A stretch of 28,112 bases of DNA from a virus. Both the position numbers and the translations under genes were made by a program. This document shows positions 2,706 to 13,385 of this stretch, piece after piece. Below the pieces are notes generated by a model. That model worked only from the letters and a program-made list of their open reading frames with translations. It had not been told where the DNA came from and searched no databases. The first letter of the stretch is position 1; the number at the start of each line of letters is the position of its first letter. The stretch covers positions 1 to 28,112 of IMG/VR virus record IMGVR_UViG_3300024520_000397, one strand, 5' to 3'.

Positions 2706-2947
2706 TCTATGCCCTCCATCACACGCTGCCCTTCAACGTCCTTGATGACACGCTTCTTAACAATCTCCACCTCAATAGGCTCCCCCACTAGCCACAAGAC
2801 TCGATAGACCACATTCTCTGCGGCATTATTTTTGATCCATCGCATAGCTGCGGCAGCATCCTTGAACCCGTCCTCCTGTATAAGCAGACTGCCAGCCTCG
2901 ACTATCCTCGCCACGCAGCACTCTTTACTCACCCTTGTCTGACCCAT
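2702..2947 (-). CDS. Small hypothetical early protein (81 aa)
   Basis: The product is 81 residues from ATG 2947, preceded immediately by AAGGAGGAGCGCA, one of the repeated early-gene ribosome binding sites. It overlaps the end of the helicase loader gene by 23 bases and its stop overlaps the next start (GTGA). The sequence has a helix (FKDAAAAMRWIKNNA) followed by alternating hydrophobic residues (VVYRVLWLVGEPIEVEIVKK) that suggest a small alpha/beta fold. No signal peptide or catalytic motif is visible and I do not know the family. Confidence 0.65.
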   Translation of the reverse strand: MGQTRVSKECCVARIVEAGSLLIQEDGFKDAAAAMRWIKNNAAENVVYRVLWLVGEPIEVEIVKKRVIKDVEGQRVMEGIE

Positions 2948-3800
2948 TGCGCTCCTCCTTCTTCTTTTCCAGCCTCATGTCTGGACCCTTCAGTAGCACC
3001 AGATCACCACCTGCGATCCGTGATGCTATCCGTCCATCGAACCTCTCCGCCAGATCGTCCGGCAGTAGGTTGGTGGTGATGATCGTCTTGAGTCCCCAGT
3101 CGTTGCGGGTGTCGATGATGGTGTATAGACACTGGACTACGAAGTCCGTGGTCTTCTCGGCACCAAGGTCATCCAGTATCACCAGCTTCTCGGTTGCCTT
3201 GATGCGCTTGAGTTGGTTGTCCAATGCCTCAAGGTCTACACCTGCTCGGGTCTGCAAGTCTAGAACAAGCTCGGGCACCTTGTAGAAGTGGAAGGCACGG
3301 AACTTCTCTTGCCCCCAGTCTATGACTGAGAACTTACCTGTCTGCTCCCACTGCTGTATGTAAGCGTCGGCCATGTCGAACGTGGCACGCTTGGCAATGG
3401 CGAATGCTGCTCTGGTCTTCCCGGTTCCCGGCTCACCTACCAAGGTAAGGAGTCCAGTGTCGTTGGCATACCAGTCGGCCACCTTCTCTTGGGCTGCCTC
3501 GGTCAAGTCTACACTCTTGGCAGCGTGAAACTGGGGAGGGATCTTCAGCTTCCGTAGCTCGTCTGACTTGTGGAGATTGACCAGCACTCGGTTGCGCTCG
3601 TCCTCGCCCATGATCTTGAACTTCTCGCAGCAAGCATCACAGATGTTGTAGCTCCGCTCGGCGTCGAAGGCATAGGTGCCTCCACACTTGGAGCATCTTG
3701 CGTGCCTCCCCACTGGAGCCTCTGTGCGCCCCTGTGAGGGCGTCGGCAGGTGAATTGAGCTGTCGTTACCCGCCAGCCTAGATAGCTTGTCATCTTCCAT
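2925..3800 (-). CDS. DnaC-like AAA+ helicase loader
   Basis: The start ATG 3800 is chosen because AGGAGCGCA lies just upstream; an upstream extension of the frame overlaps the previous gene and lacks a site. The 291-residue protein has a zinc finger at about residues 36-58 (CSKCGG, then CDACCE), a Walker A GEPGTGKT at 122-129, a Walker B VILDDLGAEK at about 207-216, a sensor-like TTN at 242-244 and arginines R257 and R261 in the arginine-finger region (GRIASRI). This is the layout of DnaC/DnaI/IstB-type loaders, which place the replicative helicase on DNA. It follows an initiator-like gene, the usual pairing. The family is confident; which helicase it loads (probably the host's, as none is seen here) is inference. 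Confidence 0.88.
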   Translation of the reverse strand: MEDDKLSRLAGNDSSIHLPTPSQGRTEAPVGRHARCSKCGGTYAFDAERSYNICDACCEKFKIMGEDERNRVLVNLHKSDELRKLKIPPQFHAAKSVDLTEAAQEKVADWYANDTGLLTLVGEPGTGKTRAAFAIAKRATFDMADAYIQQWEQTGKFSVIDWGQEKFRAFHFYKVPELVLDLQTRAGVDLEALDNQLKRIKATEKLVILDDLGAEKTTDFVVQCLYTIIDTRNDWGLKTIITTNLLPDDLAERFDGRIASRIAGGDLVLLKGPDMRLEKKKEERNGSDKGE

Positions 3801-3811
3801 CGTGTGCGCTC

Positions 3812-4480
3812 CTAAAGCCCAAGGGCTTCGTTGTAGTTTGTCTTCGTCCCTGTATTGCCACGCCGCTTCCTTGTTTCCTCGCTTTGACTCTGCTGTCGGG
3901 CGAACCAACTGTTCAGAAAGCGGGGTCGGTCCTTCTTCCTGTTCTTCTTGTTTGCCATCTCCCACATGTGGGCCTTGCGCATCTCCGTGACTATCTGCAC
4001 GTTCGGGTAGGTCTGTATCCAGCCCGACCGCAGACTATCCCAGTTATCACAGAGCGTCCTGTCCTGCTCATATAGCTCCAAGCCTACCAGATCCTCTGGC
4101 ACTGTCGCCCCCTTATGGGACGGTACGGGGAGTGTAGTGTCCCCGTATGGGGAGTCTTCAGCCTTCACCCAACCCTTCATCCGGGGGTGTTTTGATGCCA
4201 CTCCCACTACGTGTAAGCACTTTTCCTCTGTCAGCATGACTAGACATGCTTGTTGCAAGGATGTAAGTGCTACCTCCATGCTTCGGGCATCCTTGTGTAG
4301 CGTCTCTGACAGACTCGTTGCCGTGTACCACGGTGGCAGAATCTCTTTGCGCTCCTTGACGGCCAAGCACCAAAGCTCCATTTAGACTGTTTGGGTATAG
4401 GGGGACAGGGTAAAGAGCCTCGGATCGGAGAGGATGAACTCCACGTCGATACGGGCATGGAGTGCGTCCCCTCTAGCCAT
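3812..4480 (-). pseudogene. Replication initiator-like gene split by an in-frame TAA
   Basis: From ATG 4480 the frame encodes 32 residues (start MARGDALHARID, end LSPYTQTV), then TAA at 4384-4382, then in the same frame ATG 4381 and 189 more residues. Read through, the join gives LSPYTQTV-stop-MELWCLAV. In related winged-helix initiator proteins this stretch usually runs on without a break (a pattern like arLLYxxLWxLA), and the stop falls where Tyr is common, one base from TAT or TAC. The 189-residue part has a winged-helix-like region and the C-terminal signature NWDSLRSGWIQTYP plus PRFLNSWFARQQ. ATG 4381 has no Shine-Dalgarno, so it would need reinitiation or readthrough. AGGAGCGCA recurs inside the gene at 4348-4355. 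It may be a nonsense mutant, a sequencing error, or a genuinely split gene. A helicase loader gene follows. Confidence 0.6.
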
Positions 4481-4787
4481 TCGGATTCGCCTTGTGCGCT
4501 GCCTCTGTAATGACTTCGTTCATGGCCTTGTACAGGGTCGCCAATTCCTCACCAAACTCATCGTCTCCGCCCAACACCTTCTCGGCGTAGAGGTGGGTCA
4601 AGACGAAGAGTCTATCGGCCACCTCCAGCGCACCATCGAACATGCTCTTGACCAACTTGTCGCCGCATTTCTCGTGTCCACATGGCGGCATGGTCAGGCC
4701 ACATAGTGAGGTGTACGTCACAGTGAGGTGCCCCCCACTCTTCGTGCCCTCGTAGCGCGTCTTCTCGTCTTTTACTGCCTTCACCAT
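4473..4787 (-). CDS. Small hypothetical early protein (104 aa)
   Basis: The start is ATG 4787 with GGGAGAGG just upstream. The product is 104 residues: a basic N-terminus (MVKAVKDEKTRYEG), a middle with CGLTMPPCGHEKCGDK that could bind metal through three Cys and a His, and a helical acidic second half. No family is recognised. It lies between the SSB-like gene and the initiator-like gene, and its last 8 bases overlap the initiator start. A 113-base leader with strong inverted repeats separates it from the upstream gene, so its expression may be controlled there. Confidence 0.65.
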   Translation of the reverse strand: MVKAVKDEKTRYEGTKSGGHLTVTYTSLCGLTMPPCGHEKCGDKLVKSMFDGALEVADRLFVLTHLYAEKVLGGDDEFGEELATLYKAMNEVITEAAHKANPNG

Positions 4788-6234: not shown

Positions 6235-6436
6235 ACTGCGCTCCTTAAAAAAAAAGAAACCACACACCATAGGGAAGCCTCACAGGTTCTAGTAGGTCGT
6301 GACCACCAAACCTTTGTGAGGACATTCCGAGGCCGTTACGCCATCGGCTGCGTCCTTGCTGCTTGCACCCTTTACGCTTATGAAATTACGACCTTGCAGT
6401 CTTGCACTCTTGAAACTTGCTCACTTGAGGTGATGT
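6235..6436 (-). promoter_or_regulatory. Non-coding leader of the Sak4-like gene with hairpin and T9 tract
   Basis: No convincing ORF. Between the tRNA and the ATPase start lie five copies of GCAAG (minus strand) within 6355-6420, a GCCG...CGGC hairpin near 6332-6348, and an inverted repeat at 6278-6321 with arms CCTCACAGGTT and AACCTTTGTGAGG (7 bp, a 2-base bulge, then 4 bp). In the RNA the 3' arm of this hairpin holds GAGG, which lies 7 bases before an in-frame ATG at 6270. A run of nine T follows, and then the AAGGAG site for GTG 6234. It could regulate the start choice or the level of the ATPase. Confidence 0.4.
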
Positions 6437-6508
6437 CTTATACAGCGGGATTTGAACCCACAACCTCATCCTTATCAGGGATGTGCTCTACCATTGAGCT
6501 ACGTACAA
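6437..6508 (-). tRNA. tRNA-Ile (anticodon GAT)
   Basis: A complete 72-base cloverleaf on the minus strand: acceptor TTGTACG / TGTATAA (7 pairs, two G-U), D stem GCTC/GAGC with loop AATGGTA, anticodon stem CATCC/GGATG with loop CTGATAA giving anticodon GAT at 34-36, five-base variable loop AGGTT, T stem GTGGG/CCCGC with loop TTCAAAT, and discriminator G. CCA is not encoded (ACA follows). The anticodon arm closely resembles bacterial tRNA-Ile(GAU). An A at position 73 would be usual for Ile, so G73 is slightly odd. It may support phage translation or mark an integration site; no integrase is seen. Confidence 0.93.
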
Positions 6509-6825
6509 GGGTTAAGTTATTTATGAAATAACGTATCCTCGTTTGAGCCTGAGTGTTAATTTCTCGTCGCGCTTCAGGCGTCAGCGACTATTCACAGTTT
6601 CCCAGTTTTTCTCCTTACGGAGGCAAGCCTGTTTCCGGGCCTGCTATCTCCTATGGTTGCGGCTTCAGGTCCACTCAAAAACAAAAGGGGAATGTGCCGT
6701 AATGCTCCACTCCGACAATCAACAATCTCCGGCTAGGTCTGTAGGCTGGTGAGGCCGATCTGTAACGACATTCCGCAGGCAACTACGCTCATGTCCAGCA
6801 CGTAGCAAGTTGCATCCCCCATAAA
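6509..6825 (-). ncRNA. Candidate structured non-coding RNA upstream of tRNA-Ile
   Basis: These 317 bases hold no credible gene on either strand but many stems in minus-strand sense: GCAA/TTGC plus CTACG/CGTAG near 6779-6813; a long-range GGAATGT/ACATTCC pair around a CGGC/GCCG hairpin; GCAGGCC/GGCTTGC with one G-U; CTCC-GTAA-GGAG, a GNRA-type tetraloop hairpin; GTCGC/GCGAC competing with GCCTGA/TCAGGC; and a perfect 7-bp hairpin GTTATTT-CAT-AAATAAC at 6516-6532 just before the tRNA. A 29-codon ORF (6733-6822) is possible but weak. The density of stems, a GNRA loop and the adjacent tRNA suggest a functional RNA; large phage RNAs such as GOLLD are known near tRNAs, but this identity is not established. 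A weak -35/-10 pair may lie near 6532-6562. Confidence 0.35.
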
Positions 6826-7848: not shown

Positions 7849-8163
7849 CTAGACTCCAGCCCCATTCTTCTTGATATGGCGTTCCGCAACTTTGCGCGAA
7901 GCAAAAGACCCAGCAACCTTACCAGCAGCAGTGATAGCGGGGACGCCGAGAAAGGTGCCAGCCAATAGCAGCACACCCTCCAGCAGGCCAAGCCCACCAA
8001 GGCCCTTGCTCTGCATGTCCTTGACTTGCCGGATCACTTCGCCAGCTTCATTGACAGTCTTGGTGATGACCTCAGTACGACCCAGAAGGTCGGCCAGTGA
8101 ACAGCCCGAGAGGGCACCAATAGCGACACCACATAGCACTAAAGCACATAGTCTAGACTTCAT
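7849..8163 (-). CDS. Outer-membrane-type lipoprotein with second hydrophobic segment
   Basis: The 104-residue product begins MKSRLCALVLCGVAIGALSGCSLAD: two basic residues, a hydrophobic core and lipobox LSGC with Cys21 as the lipidated residue. Ser at +2 favours the outer membrane. After a polar stretch (TKTVNEAGEVIRQVKDMQ) there is a second hydrophobic, Gly-rich segment at about residues 56-85 (GLLEGVLLLAGTFLGVP), then a basic tail. Small phage lipoproteins next to membrane proteins are often o-spanins, but the second hydrophobic segment is unusual for those. ATG 8163 overlaps the stop of the giant ejection protein as ATGA, so it is coupled to the late operon. A spanin-like or superinfection-exclusion role is possible. 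Confidence 0.7.
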   Translation of the reverse strand: MKSRLCALVLCGVAIGALSGCSLADLLGRTEVITKTVNEAGEVIRQVKDMQSKGLGGLGLLEGVLLLAGTFLGVPAITAAGKVAGSFASRKVAERHIKKNGAGV

Positions 8164-11100
8164 TTCTTGCGTTCCTTTTTGAATTTAACGAACAGTTTTC
8201 TGACCTGTCTGATCTCTAGGCGCTCTGCTTTTATCATAGAGTCTAGAGTCTCGAACTCTTTCTTGAGTTGGTCGGGATCGAGGTTTGCCTGACGCCTCTT
8301 CTTTTTCTTCAACGCTTGCAGGTTACGCACGCGCTTGTTCTTGTTCAGTATGAAGAACTTGTAGCCACGCTCGGGGTCTACCTTGTAGGTACGGCCACCA
8401 CCGAAGAACTGCACGAACCGCTCAACCTCGGTAAGCTCCAGCCTTCCGGGACGATTCTTGCCGAAGATGTTGAACGGGTTCAGCTTGTCTAGCTCGTTGA
8501 TAGGACGGAGCTGGCGCAACAGGTTCAGGTTCTTGCGCTTGATAAACCCGCCAATGCCTACCTCGTCTAGGTTCATCTCTATATCTGTACCGGGGATCTT
8601 CACCTTGTCGGCTAGGTAGTACGCAGACTCACCTTCAAATCGCTCGACCTCTTGTCCAGTGAAGAAGCTGTGGTTAGCGATGTTCTCGATAGGTGCCTTG
8701 AGGGGTCCACCCATGTTACGCAGCAGCGTTTCGCCAGCCGACTTTATGGCTTGCGATGGATCGCCAGCGAAGAATCCCTTCGCCATCTTAGCAACGTCAC
8801 TAAGGTCAGCAGAGGAGACGAAGTTCTTGATCGTAAAGAACTCAATAGTCCCGTCCTTGTTTACCTTGGTCGGGATGCCTAGACCTTCCTTGATGAACTT
8901 CCTCACCAATGGGCGCGGCACCTTGTTAGCCTCTGCGTCCCGAGTGTACTCGATAGCCTTGGCTACATGAGACATGCGGTGCGGGTTGGTTATAAGCTCT
9001 TGGACTTGGAAGGGGACGTTGTTGAACGACCACTTGTAGAAGGGCATGACCTGTCCAACTCCGCGTCCGAACTTGCCGAAGTCGCGGCTGTAGTCAAACA
9101 GGTACTTGTTCACTCGTTGTGCTGCTGCCTGCGGGAGCAAGCCCTTGTCTAGTCCGTCTATGAATAGTCCAACGCGGCTCCAGTCCTCCACGACCGTACC
9201 AACGGCACGGTTAGCGCGAAGCATAAAGAAGTTGTTGGGGTCAGCCGGATTCAAATTCTTCAAGGTGTTGATGACCTTGTTGGACTGACTCTTGCCGACC
9301 ATGCTCAACGATGCTTGTCCAGCCTCTTTGAGTGTGTCAGCAGCGAAGCCGCTACCCTTTATTCCGAAGCTATGCAGCCAGTCAACGATGTCACGGTTAG
9401 AGACGGCACGACCACCAAGCTGTGTAGTCCCACTCAGGAATGCTTCATCACGCGCTTTCCACATGAACTCCATAGATGACTGGAGGTGTACTGGGTTCGC
9501 GTCTGCAAGGTGGTAGTGGACAAGGTTGCCCACCGTATTTCTTGCATGGAAACCAAATGCCAGAACTGCGTAGCCCTTCCACAGGGACATAGCCCACTGA
9601 TAGGTACGTGCCACCCTGTTCAAGAACTGGGGCGACTGGAACGCAGCAGACGTTTCGTTAAGTGCACTTGCAATAGGGGTCGGCACCATGACCACTTGCA
9701 CGCCGCGCTCTCTAGCTTCCTTGCGTGTGATCTCTCGACCCTTGCGACGTTCAGCTACACGCTTGCGGATAGGCGTCAGTCCAGACCCGCGAATGGCACG
9801 GTTGTTTACTGCTGCTACAGTGCGTGGGTCTACAACTACAAGCGCCTGCTCTGGAGCTTGACGTTCTAGGTTTTCCTTAACCGCCTTGCGCATCTTGAAC
9901 GGATCACCTTCGAGCTTCAGGGTTGTGTTGTCCTGCTGCCGGATGACGCGGCCAGTAAGACCGTCGATCATGGTGTTTCTAGACGTGCCGATACTGCCAC
10001 CAATAGTGACCATCGACATGCCCGGATTCTCAGCAAGCAGGCGTTGAATTTCCTCTTCCGTATGCTTACCGATCTGCACGCCGATCATCTTTCCGTTGGC
10101 GTCACGCTTCGCAAAGGTGCTGACCGTTTCGATCACATACTCTGCGCGGGTACGAACTTCAGCCGAGCGGTTGACACGCTTAAACAATGCCTCGATAGGC
10201 TCGTCTAGTTCAAACCACTGACCAAGCGCAGGCTCGCGCTTGAGGATGATGTCCATTGCCTTCTTCTTCTGCTGCTTAGTCAGTACATGACCGAACGAGA
10301 AGTTGCCCTCACGCATAGCTTGCTGGATTTGTCTAGAAGTCATCTCCCCGAGGGAGCGGTGGTTGGAGTTCTTGAACCATTCACCGTAGCCTTTGACGCC
10401 AAGGAAGAATCTATGCAGCTCCTCTTTGGTTTCTTTAGCCAGCTCACGAGCAAAGTAGCCTTCCATGATGTCATCAATCAAGTCTAGATCAGCCTCCATC
10501 GTGGCAAGCGTTCTCATCTGCACGTCGATGAAGGTTTTCAGCTCCTCAAATTCTTTGGAGAGTGGCAGCCTAGCCATCTCGATCTGTCCACCACCCGGAC
10601 CACGCAACAACCACACGTCCTTGCCTGCTTCGTTGACCATGTGTTCGCGGCTGGTGTCTATGGTTCTGTAGAAGTTCTCAAAGAGAGTGACGTTTGCCAA
10701 GTCCTCTTCACGCCTAATGACCTTGCGTGCTGCCTTAACCGCAGTCTTGGGAATGAATGCTTTGTTCAGTGGGTTGAGGACTGCGCCATCCACGACCTGC
10801 TCCCAATCGCGGAGCAATGCTTGTGCAGTCCTACTCTTCTTGGATGCAGTGCCAAGCTCACGAGCGAGGATGTCAGAAATCTTTTCAGGATCACCCTTCG
10901 CCTTTTCAATTCTGTTGCGCACTCTCTTTGCCAGCTTGGAGTTTGCTCCGATGCCAGCCTCGTCTAGGGAGTGTCTAACCAAGTCTTGCAGTGCTGTGTC
11001 GTCATCAATGACACGACCGAATTCTTCAAGGGGAGCCTTGGATGCAGCGAACGAAGTCTTGGCTGCCTCAACAGACATGAAGTCTTCTGAGATTTTCAGC

Positions 11101-13385
11101 TCACGACCAGCCACGTCCTTGGAGTTGCCAACGATGTGAAGCATTAGACGTTCACGACCCATAGCCGCTTCTTCGATATCGTTTGCCGTCTTGACCACAT
11201 GGTTGATCTTTGCTGTGCCCTTTTTAGCGATCACTTCATCGAGCTTTGCAATTAAGTCGGAACGCTTTGTGACTAGACCCTTTGCTCTGCCCAGCTCTTT
11301 TGCTGTGGCCTTCTGGAATCCGGGGAAGAACTTGCCTAGCTCCTTGTCCGTCATCGCCGGGATCGCAACCTTGGAGTGGGGTGCCCCATCCTGTGCAATC
11401 TTGTTGACACGATCAACCAAGCCCTTGGCCTGCTTCCTAATGTCCTTGAGGTTCAGGTCAGGGTACTTTGCCTTCAGCTCTTTGAGCGCAGACTTACGCA
11501 AAGCCTGAAGCTGCCCGCTCGTCTTGCGATTACCAATGGAGTACAGCAGTGCCTCTATGTCATTATCGAAGACAAGCGTGCGTCCAGTGCCAGTCTTACT
11601 GCCAAGCCTAACGACAACCTCTGCTTGACCAGCCTCATTGCGCATAACTGCTGGCAGGTCTAGCTGCGCCTCACGCAGTACAGTCGGTGTAGTTACTTTG
11701 CGCTTCGGAGCCTTCGGCTTCTTGAATGCGCGTGCAGCTTCTTGCTTGGCAATTGCTCTCAGGTCGCCCGAGGTTCTCAGCACCCTTGTGGGTACTGTCT
11801 CCCCTTCTCGAAGCGCGGCCTTGACTCCATCAAACCATTCCTTCTCGCCAGCTACGCGGCCACCAGCAAGAACTCTGTCGGTGTATTCCTTGCGAGTGAA
11901 TAGCCAAGGGGCTGCCTCGGGCACATCGTCTAGAGTGTGCGCTGGTACATCGAAGCCACTCTTCTTCGCGGCGACAACACTTGCACGCCATGCGTCTTCG
12001 ATGTTGGGTGCAAGCTCAGTCTCCCAAGGATGCTCCTTGAGCCACTTGGCTTCAAATTCGTCTCGGCTTAGTCCCCACTTGTCAGCGACCTCTGGCGAAA
12101 CATTGTCCAGCGTGTCCTTGACTCGATGAATTTCGTTGCTGCTTTGCTGTGTGCCAGCTCTGTACTCGCGCACCGACATCTTCGGGTGTACGTCAGTCAC
12201 GTCCTTAAACGCGCCAGCATTCATGCCCGGAAGTTCTTCGAGCAGCATGTCATCAATATCTTTGCGGGCAGCAGGGATGTGATTGCCGAGGATGTTGTCT
12301 AGACCCTTCAAGTCACGGATGGTCTTTATCTCTTCGCCAAGCTCCTTGCTCATGTCATCGACAATCTCTGGGATGCTTTTGCCCTGCGACAGGCCACGAG
12401 CCATGATATTTCTAGCGTCGATGGGCACCTCAAGGATCGTGTCCAAAAGAATTTCTTTCTCTTGAGCAGTACCGTTGCGGTAACGCCTCATCATCTCAGC
12501 CCAGATCACGAAGTTTTCTTTCTTCCGGCCAGTCATCAGGGTCATGTGCTTGCGAAGGACTTCACCAGCTAGGCGTCTAGTCGGCATCTCTTGCAACCAC
12601 TTGCCAATGAACGGAGACTTCTCCGCGAGCTTGCCTAGACCAGAGAACGCTTCAAATACTTTGACGTTGAACTCAGTGAAGGGTAGCGCATTGACTCCAT
12701 AAATCTGGACAAGCGCCCTGTGCCCTTCGCGTGCTTGCTGAGACAAAGCGACCTTGGGAACTTCGTTGCCCTTCTTTAGCGTCTCACGAACAAACCTTAC
12801 TACGTCCCTCTTGGCGACACCTTCGATAGTCTTGTCGGTGATCTGCCTGCCGTACTTCTTCCAAGCGTTAAGCGCAAACTCATGCTCTGCCATCCGGCCT
12901 TTGCCAGTCTTGGCAAACAAGCGCAGCTTGTTAAGCGGGTCGATAGGGTTGAACACATCAATGAGGAAGCCAAGCGCCCCACGTCCAGTAACCTTGCCAA
13001 GGATGGGCAAGTCCACCGAGCCAAGCTCGTCTACACCAGCAGTCTCAAGGACTTCAGACATCACCTTAATCTTGGTTGTGGTCGGATCTCCGAAGGCATC
13101 TAGGAACTTGCCAATGGGATTGAAGTCTGCACGCCCCTGCATAGACAGGATCACGTTCTCAATTGCGCTGTTGATGCCAGATGACGGTTGCAGCAGTGCA
13201 TTCATTCCAATGAAGAATGGGTTGTCTTCTACGGGCTGAGTGCCTTCCCGTTGCGTAGTAGGTACAGTCCTATCCACGCCATCAGGCATCAGGGTTAGGT
13301 CTAGCGCCTTGCGGCTAGACTCCCTGTCAGTGTCCTCGATCAACTCATCGAGAAGTTTGAGTGCAGCTCCGCTATCAAGTGGCAT
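8160..13385 (-). CDS. Giant internal virion / DNA ejection protein (1741 aa)
   Basis: The largest gene in the window. It starts in a TAATG overlap with the preceding gene and ends in ATGA with the next. The protein is highly charged and helical. Around residues 370-570 are Trp- and Asp-rich segments, then a basic linker (KKPKAPKRK). At roughly residues 1330-1500 lies a more hydrophobic region (LWKGYAVLAFGFHARN, then AAQRVNKYLFDYSRDFGKF and VMPFYKWSFNNVPFQ) like the C-terminal domains of very large phage ejection and polyvalent proteins. The tail is basic (KKKKRRQ, FKKERKK). I find no clear lysozyme or transglycosylase active site. By position and size it corresponds to T7 gp16-type internal virion proteins, which leave the capsid and form a conduit for DNA entry. 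The role is inferred from context. Confidence 0.7.
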   Translation of the reverse strand: MPLDSGAALKLLDELIEDTDRESSRKALDLTLMPDGVDRTVPTTQREGTQPVEDNPFFIGMNALLQPSSGINSAIENVILSMQGRADFNPIGKFLDAFGDPTTTKIKVMSEVLETAGVDELGSVDLPILGKVTGRGALGFLIDVFNPIDPLNKLRLFAKTGKGRMAEHEFALNAWKKYGRQITDKTIEGVAKRDVVRFVRETLKKGNEVPKVALSQQAREGHRALVQIYGVNALPFTEFNVKVFEAFSGLGKLAEKSPFIGKWLQEMPTRRLAGEVLRKHMTLMTGRKKENFVIWAEMMRRYRNGTAQEKEILLDTILEVPIDARNIMARGLSQGKSIPEIVDDMSKELGEEIKTIRDLKGLDNILGNHIPAARKDIDDMLLEELPGMNAGAFKDVTDVHPKMSVREYRAGTQQSSNEIHRVKDTLDNVSPEVADKWGLSRDEFEAKWLKEHPWETELAPNIEDAWRASVVAAKKSGFDVPAHTLDDVPEAAPWLFTRKEYTDRVLAGGRVAGEKEWFDGVKAALREGETVPTRVLRTSGDLRAIAKQEAARAFKKPKAPKRKVTTPTVLREAQLDLPAVMRNEAGQAEVVVRLGSKTGTGRTLVFDNDIEALLYSIGNRKTSGQLQALRKSALKELKAKYPDLNLKDIRKQAKGLVDRVNKIAQDGAPHSKVAIPAMTDKELGKFFPGFQKATAKELGRAKGLVTKRSDLIAKLDEVIAKKGTAKINHVVKTANDIEEAAMGRERLMLHIVGNSKDVAGRELKISEDFMSVEAAKTSFAASKAPLEEFGRVIDDDTALQDLVRHSLDEAGIGANSKLAKRVRNRIEKAKGDPEKISDILARELGTASKKSRTAQALLRDWEQVVDGAVLNPLNKAFIPKTAVKAARKVIRREEDLANVTLFENFYRTIDTSREHMVNEAGKDVWLLRGPGGGQIEMARLPLSKEFEELKTFIDVQMRTLATMEADLDLIDDIMEGYFARELAKETKEELHRFFLGVKGYGEWFKNSNHRSLGEMTSRQIQQAMREGNFSFGHVLTKQQKKKAMDIILKREPALGQWFELDEPIEALFKRVNRSAEVRTRAEYVIETVSTFAKRDANGKMIGVQIGKHTEEEIQRLLAENPGMSMVTIGGSIGTSRNTMIDGLTGRVIRQQDNTTLKLEGDPFKMRKAVKENLERQAPEQALVVVDPRTVAAVNNRAIRGSGLTPIRKRVAERRKGREITRKEARERGVQVVMVPTPIASALNETSAAFQSPQFLNRVARTYQWAMSLWKGYAVLAFGFHARNTVGNLVHYHLADANPVHLQSSMEFMWKARDEAFLSGTTQLGGRAVSNRDIVDWLHSFGIKGSGFAADTLKEAGQASLSMVGKSQSNKVINTLKNLNPADPNNFFMLRANRAVGTVVEDWSRVGLFIDGLDKGLLPQAAAQRVNKYLFDYSRDFGKFGRGVGQVMPFYKWSFNNVPFQVQELITNPHRMSHVAKAIEYTRDAEANKVPRPLVRKFIKEGLGIPTKVNKDGTIEFFTIKNFVSSADLSDVAKMAKGFFAGDPSQAIKSAGETLLRNMGGPLKAPIENIANHSFFTGQEVERFEGESAYYLADKVKIPGTDIEMNLDEVGIGGFIKRKNLNLLRQLRPINELDKLNPFNIFGKNRPGRLELTEVERFVQFFGGGRTYKVDPERGYKFFILNKNKRVRNLQALKKKKRRQANLDPDQLKKEFETLDSMIKAERLEIRQVRKLFVKFKKERKK

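Follow-up and report, generated by a model that had tools for sequence, protein, structure and literature searches.

A putative phage replication initiator gene with an in-frame TAA in its predicted winged-helix half and a strong start signal of its own before its C-terminal module

The initiator gp38 of phage SPP1 works together with a loader and a helicase, and gene 38 has origin repeats within or near it, a trait which is common but not universal (PMC6316719). Among the known initiators, those of the winged-helix (WH) type are found in phrog_16167, 12556, 1408 and 2149, with examples in Vibrio phage 1.176.O, Escherichia phage Dewey and the IMG/VR locus L089, and they share with the gene studied here the N-terminal pattern PEFFxxxxLxxLSPxxRLLF/YIxLWxxAD. 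In Escherichia phage Dewey a helicase loader adjoins the initiator, as it does here, and L089 carries the same C-terminal module as our gene. However, the similarity to the WH-type initiators is weak, and they have Phe or Tyr (in one case Ala) where our gene has a stop codon. The module itself is also known from initiators with other front halves: the Phage_rep_O type of L078, the replisome organizer gp42 of a Ruminococcus phage (L051), L160, L163, L180 and the ParB-like L181. These share the module with the gene studied here at about 37-50% identity, but their front halves are unrelated or very distant and the matched region holds no in-frame stop.

We analysed a window of 28,112 bases, which is an entire IMG/VR phage record and carries terminase, portal-position, capsid, tail, Sak4-like, DUF669-like and DnaC-like genes. 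The sequence and frame of the initiator-like gene are as the original prediction gave them: a frame of 32 codons begins with ATG4480 on the minus strand (4382-4480) and ends in TAA (4382-4384), and the same frame continues from ATG4381 through 189 codons to a TAG whose last base is 3812 (3812-4381), the junction reading TAAATG. This continuation covers the remaining WH domain, a linker and the C-terminal module. ATG4480 has a weak Shine-Dalgarno (SD) sequence (-4.0 kcal/mol) and shares 8 nt (ATGGCTAG) with the end of an upstream 104-aa gene of unknown function (4473-4787, minus strand), for which no family match was found and whose stop overlaps this ATG; the nearest in-frame stop upstream is the TGA at 4522-4520. 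Apart from the TAA, the frame is open across 221 sense codons. The coding score of the 32-codon part is 0.05 in frame against -0.53 and -0.37 in the two shifted frames, a value reached by only 2% of wrong-frame windows of 32 codons, and on both sides of the TAA the in-frame scores exceed those of both shifted frames. Since the in-frame score is so far above the shifted ones, the 32-codon frame is probably not accidental.

Comparison with 14 WH initiators, with which residues 12-32 align, indicates what the stop interrupts. Where these proteins show patterns such as VKPEFFTSEDICNLTPLSRLLYIALWCEA, the window has DVEFILSDPRLFTLSPYTQTV-stop-MELWCLA. Of their residues in the column aligned with the TAA, 10 are Phe, 3 are Tyr and 1 is Ala, and none of the proteins has a stop there. 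The match over 30 columns was reached by 26 of 20,000 shuffles, which puts it above chance, though it is weak. Taken alone, the stretch ahead of the TAA gave a fixed-register p of 0.0045 against the WH family; both values are somewhat optimistic, because the comparison set was reached via L089, which already aligned weakly with the window. Pfam gave only sub-threshold matches for the initiator (HTH_36 at E 0.1, far below the cut-off, and Phage_rep_org_N at E 0.13), a Pfam search with X at the stop position reported no family, and a structure search with the full model returned no convincing match. The AlphaFold model places residue 33, the position of the stop, within a helix of residues 27-43 in a block with pLDDT of about 76, and a single-sequence structure run likewise carries a helix across the stop, at very low confidence. 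The proposal that the stop falls in a predicted helix, at an aromatic column, is thus borne out by the model and by the Phe or Tyr in 13 of the 14 proteins. On alignment and model together, the 32-codon part is probably the beginning of a WH domain whose helix the stop interrupts, and we infer a WH fold for the front half, residues about 12-110.

The synonymous codon usage of the WH half (codons 1-126) scores -0.015, little above the lowest value among 132 windows of the same length (minimum -0.029, 5% at 0.035), and that of the C-terminal module, at 0.054, is closer to normal. The low score fits either recent acquisition or relaxed selection of the WH half. Any decay of this half would be recent, as its 126 codons contain one stop only.

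The C-terminal module comprises residues 127-222 (3812-4102, minus strand; 96 aa if translated from a GTG at 4102), is recognised by sequence identity and is modeled with pLDDT of about 95. Residues 118-200 match the pattern [Y/F]PxxxxxxExRKAHxWExANxxxRKKDRxRFLNxWLxR found in many phage replication proteins, identity to L158, L160-L164, L180, L181, L078/L159 and L079 is about 37-51%, and phmmer matched L078 at E 2.7e-20. The proteins that carry the module have different front halves, Phage_rep_O in L078, Lin1244_N in L092, a WH initiator in L089 and a ParB-like part in L181, where positions 3374-4312 encode the module joined to that front half; in L079/L162 and L161 the module is a separate gene. 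The gene in the window is directly followed by a DnaC-like AAA+ helicase loader (2925-3800, minus strand; phrog_50 at E 7e-31, phrog_3277 at E 1e-17), and the order of initiator and loader is the one seen in Escherichia phage Dewey and Lactococcus phage r1t. The module homology together with the adjacent loader gene argues that the gene encodes a phage replication initiator, as had been proposed, whose product would bind the origin. Among the database records, L165 (QZIV01000011.1), assigned to a Candidatus Parcubacteria MAG, and the IMG/VR record L078/L159 are both of size 46,236 with an identical match range; a viral sequence therefore appears to have been binned in this MAG.

The original prediction held that the long part of the gene needs readthrough or termination-reinitiation, as ATG4381 has no ribosome binding site. 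The latter is correct: its SD value is +0.9 kcal/mol, tied for the worst among the starts examined. The former need not apply to the C-terminal module, which has a start signal of its own that had been missed. The sequence AAGGGGG (4114-4108) stands 5 nt ahead of the GTG at 4102-4100, codon 127 of the gene, and gives an SD strength of -11.3 kcal/mol (feature 4100-4114, minus strand). Inside other genes, none of 420 in-frame starts reaches this value; of all 3006 start triplets, whatever their kind, 6 do, and among the gene starts examined only that at 2947 has a stronger SD. GTG4102 lies at the module boundary (VPEDLVGLELY). In the stand-alone homologues, too, the start lies close to the corresponding point and follows an AGGGGG-type SD that is about as strong: L079 (GTG, -11.1) and L161 (ATG, -11.6) each begin four codons ahead of the position equivalent to GTG4102, 4 before the conserved VP. 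L079/L162 and L161 have no in-frame WH domain upstream. Their starts do not coincide with the TAA position but lie about 90 codons further downstream. Having a strong in-frame start like those of its stand-alone homologues, the module need not rely on readthrough or reinitiation, and GTG4102 may well be in use as its start. This is suggestive and not proven, because the fused relatives L160, L163, L164, L180, L078 and L181 have no strong SD at the module boundary.

The neighbouring Sak4-like, DUF669-like and DnaC-like genes are intact. A search for origin repeats (iterons) in or near the initiator gene gave only two-copy matches of 10-12 nt, and no AT-rich stretch was found around it. Some other features of the records deserve mention. 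The window has a tRNA-Ile (GAT) gene at 6435-6509 on the minus strand (67.8 bits) and, among structural-type genes, a protein of 1741 aa (8160-13385, minus strand) without a PHROG match at E 0.01. The listed start of the 633-aa portal-position gene, GTG 26547, is not preceded by an SD (+0.6 kcal/mol), and the real start may be elsewhere. In L056, a frame at 9877-11049 which adjoins a DUF669-like gene encodes many near-identical repeats (ALPALTSIGGSAYLEGYAH).

IMG/VR searches with the initiator, helicase loader, terminase and capsid reached at most 22-36% identity and gave no close relative, and searches of phage DNA and plasmid proteins for relatives were empty. Neither the initiator nor the loader was found in 26 records that share the capsid or terminase, and a scan for the Sak4 motif found the same Sak4-DUF669 neighbours with different replication genes downstream. 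The matches of a WH-only search (L183, L184 and L185) were discarded as chance hits. Relatives of this gene were thus found at the level of the module and no closer. At the position of the stop, each of the 14 distant WH homologues carries a sense codon, but all of them are too distant to show whether the TAA is a private one.

We consider it fairly probable that the TAA in the WH half of the initiator is a nonsense change private to this phage or contig, be it genuine or a mistake in the consensus, and that the C-terminal module can still be expressed from GTG4102. According to this explanation, the WH domain (residues about 12-110) would bind the origin and the module (127-222) would act together with the DnaC-like loader next to it; a single nonsense codon, in a place where an aromatic residue is usual, would break the WH half, so that the full-length WH protein would not be produced, while the module would still be made from its own ribosome binding site and GTG4102. 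An N-terminally truncated form of 180-190 residues would arise only by weak reinitiation, either at TAAATG or at a TTG codon (4364-4366, minus strand) with GGAG 9 nt upstream and an SD value of -5.6 kcal/mol. The explanation is supported by the stop column, which is Phe or Tyr in 13 of 14 WH initiators, by the otherwise open frame, by the intact neighbouring genes and by the low codon score of the WH half. It is weakened by the searches that gave no close relative, by the low WH homology (HTH_36 at E 0.1), by the ATG immediately after the stop, a spacing that favours coupling, and, as regards decay, by the codon score, which could mean recent acquisition instead; the part that concerns GTG4102 is weakened by the fused relatives without a strong boundary start. 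Belinky et al. (2021, PMC7918605) found in-frame stops in bacterial genes to be mostly short-lived and over-represented in the mobilome category. Our case resembles these in having one stop in an otherwise open homologous frame, but there the stop was traced via orthologues, and for our gene no close orthologue was found. We infer that the change is recent. The stop most likely arose either by mutation or through an erroneous or minority base in the assembly, and it is most likely not a conserved recoding device.

A programmed split would explain the arrangement differently: having finished the 32-codon frame, ribosomes would start again at TAAATG or TTG4366, and the second product would have 189 residues or slightly fewer, so that two polypeptides would be made in a set ratio. 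Translational coupling is taken as likely when stop and start lie -8 to +10 nt apart (PMC10666635) and the SD is not strictly required for it (PMC10666635, PMC6728339); here the distance is 0 nt, stop/start overlaps are common in this phage, and GGAG precedes TTG4366. As coupling at so short a distance has no strict need of an SD, weak reinitiation at these sites is possible. However, the break lies within the helix 27-43 and not at a domain boundary, and would not leave two separately folding products (the model being of modest confidence), ATG4381 has no SD, no relative is split at this point, and TAAATG occurs in the window at chance frequency (6 found against 7.6 expected). We regard such a programmed split as unlikely. 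The further elaboration in which the initiator is deliberately divided into a short WH-start peptide, a remainder coupled through TAAATG and a module initiated separately at GTG4102 seems very unlikely to us. We also find it quite unlikely that the first 32 codons encode a leader peptide with no relation to the gene proper, which would then begin only at ATG4381 or GTG4102. The weak WH homology of residues 1-32 and the existence of the module as a stand-alone gene (L079, L161) would agree with a leader peptide, but the upstream part stands in the correct register of the WH family, the predicted helix runs across the stop, ATG4381 lacks a ribosome binding site and the stand-alone homologues begin about 90 codons past the TAA.

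If the TAA were decoded some of the time, through a suppressor of the host or programmed readthrough, a protein of 222 residues would result, and the frame is indeed open and homologous on either side of the stop. Against this, the only tRNA gene found in the record is the Ile-GAT one and none is a suppressor, no stimulatory RNA structure was detected around the TAA (fold z-score -0.39), and about 10 of the 29 other listed frames use TAA as their normal stop; we judge readthrough or suppression highly improbable. The same use of TAA rules out its reassignment, which had already been thought unlikely. There is thus no support for reassignment, for a suppressor carried by the phage or for structured readthrough, and the regulated split and suppressor-dependent options of the original prediction gained no positive evidence from the fold, the tRNA content or the position of the break within the helix.

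If the stop is a private mutation, we are dealing with a broken or assembly-affected gene of the ordinary sort, in an orphan phage. If the deliberate split were true, the phage would tune origin binding against helicase-loader recruitment via translation. The more useful result is that one replication module occurs joined to four or more dissimilar kinds of front half, namely WH, Phage_rep_O, Lin1244-type and ParB-like, and also stands alone. Its own internal ribosome binding site in this phage makes it a testable question whether phages produce a separate module protein beside the full initiator.
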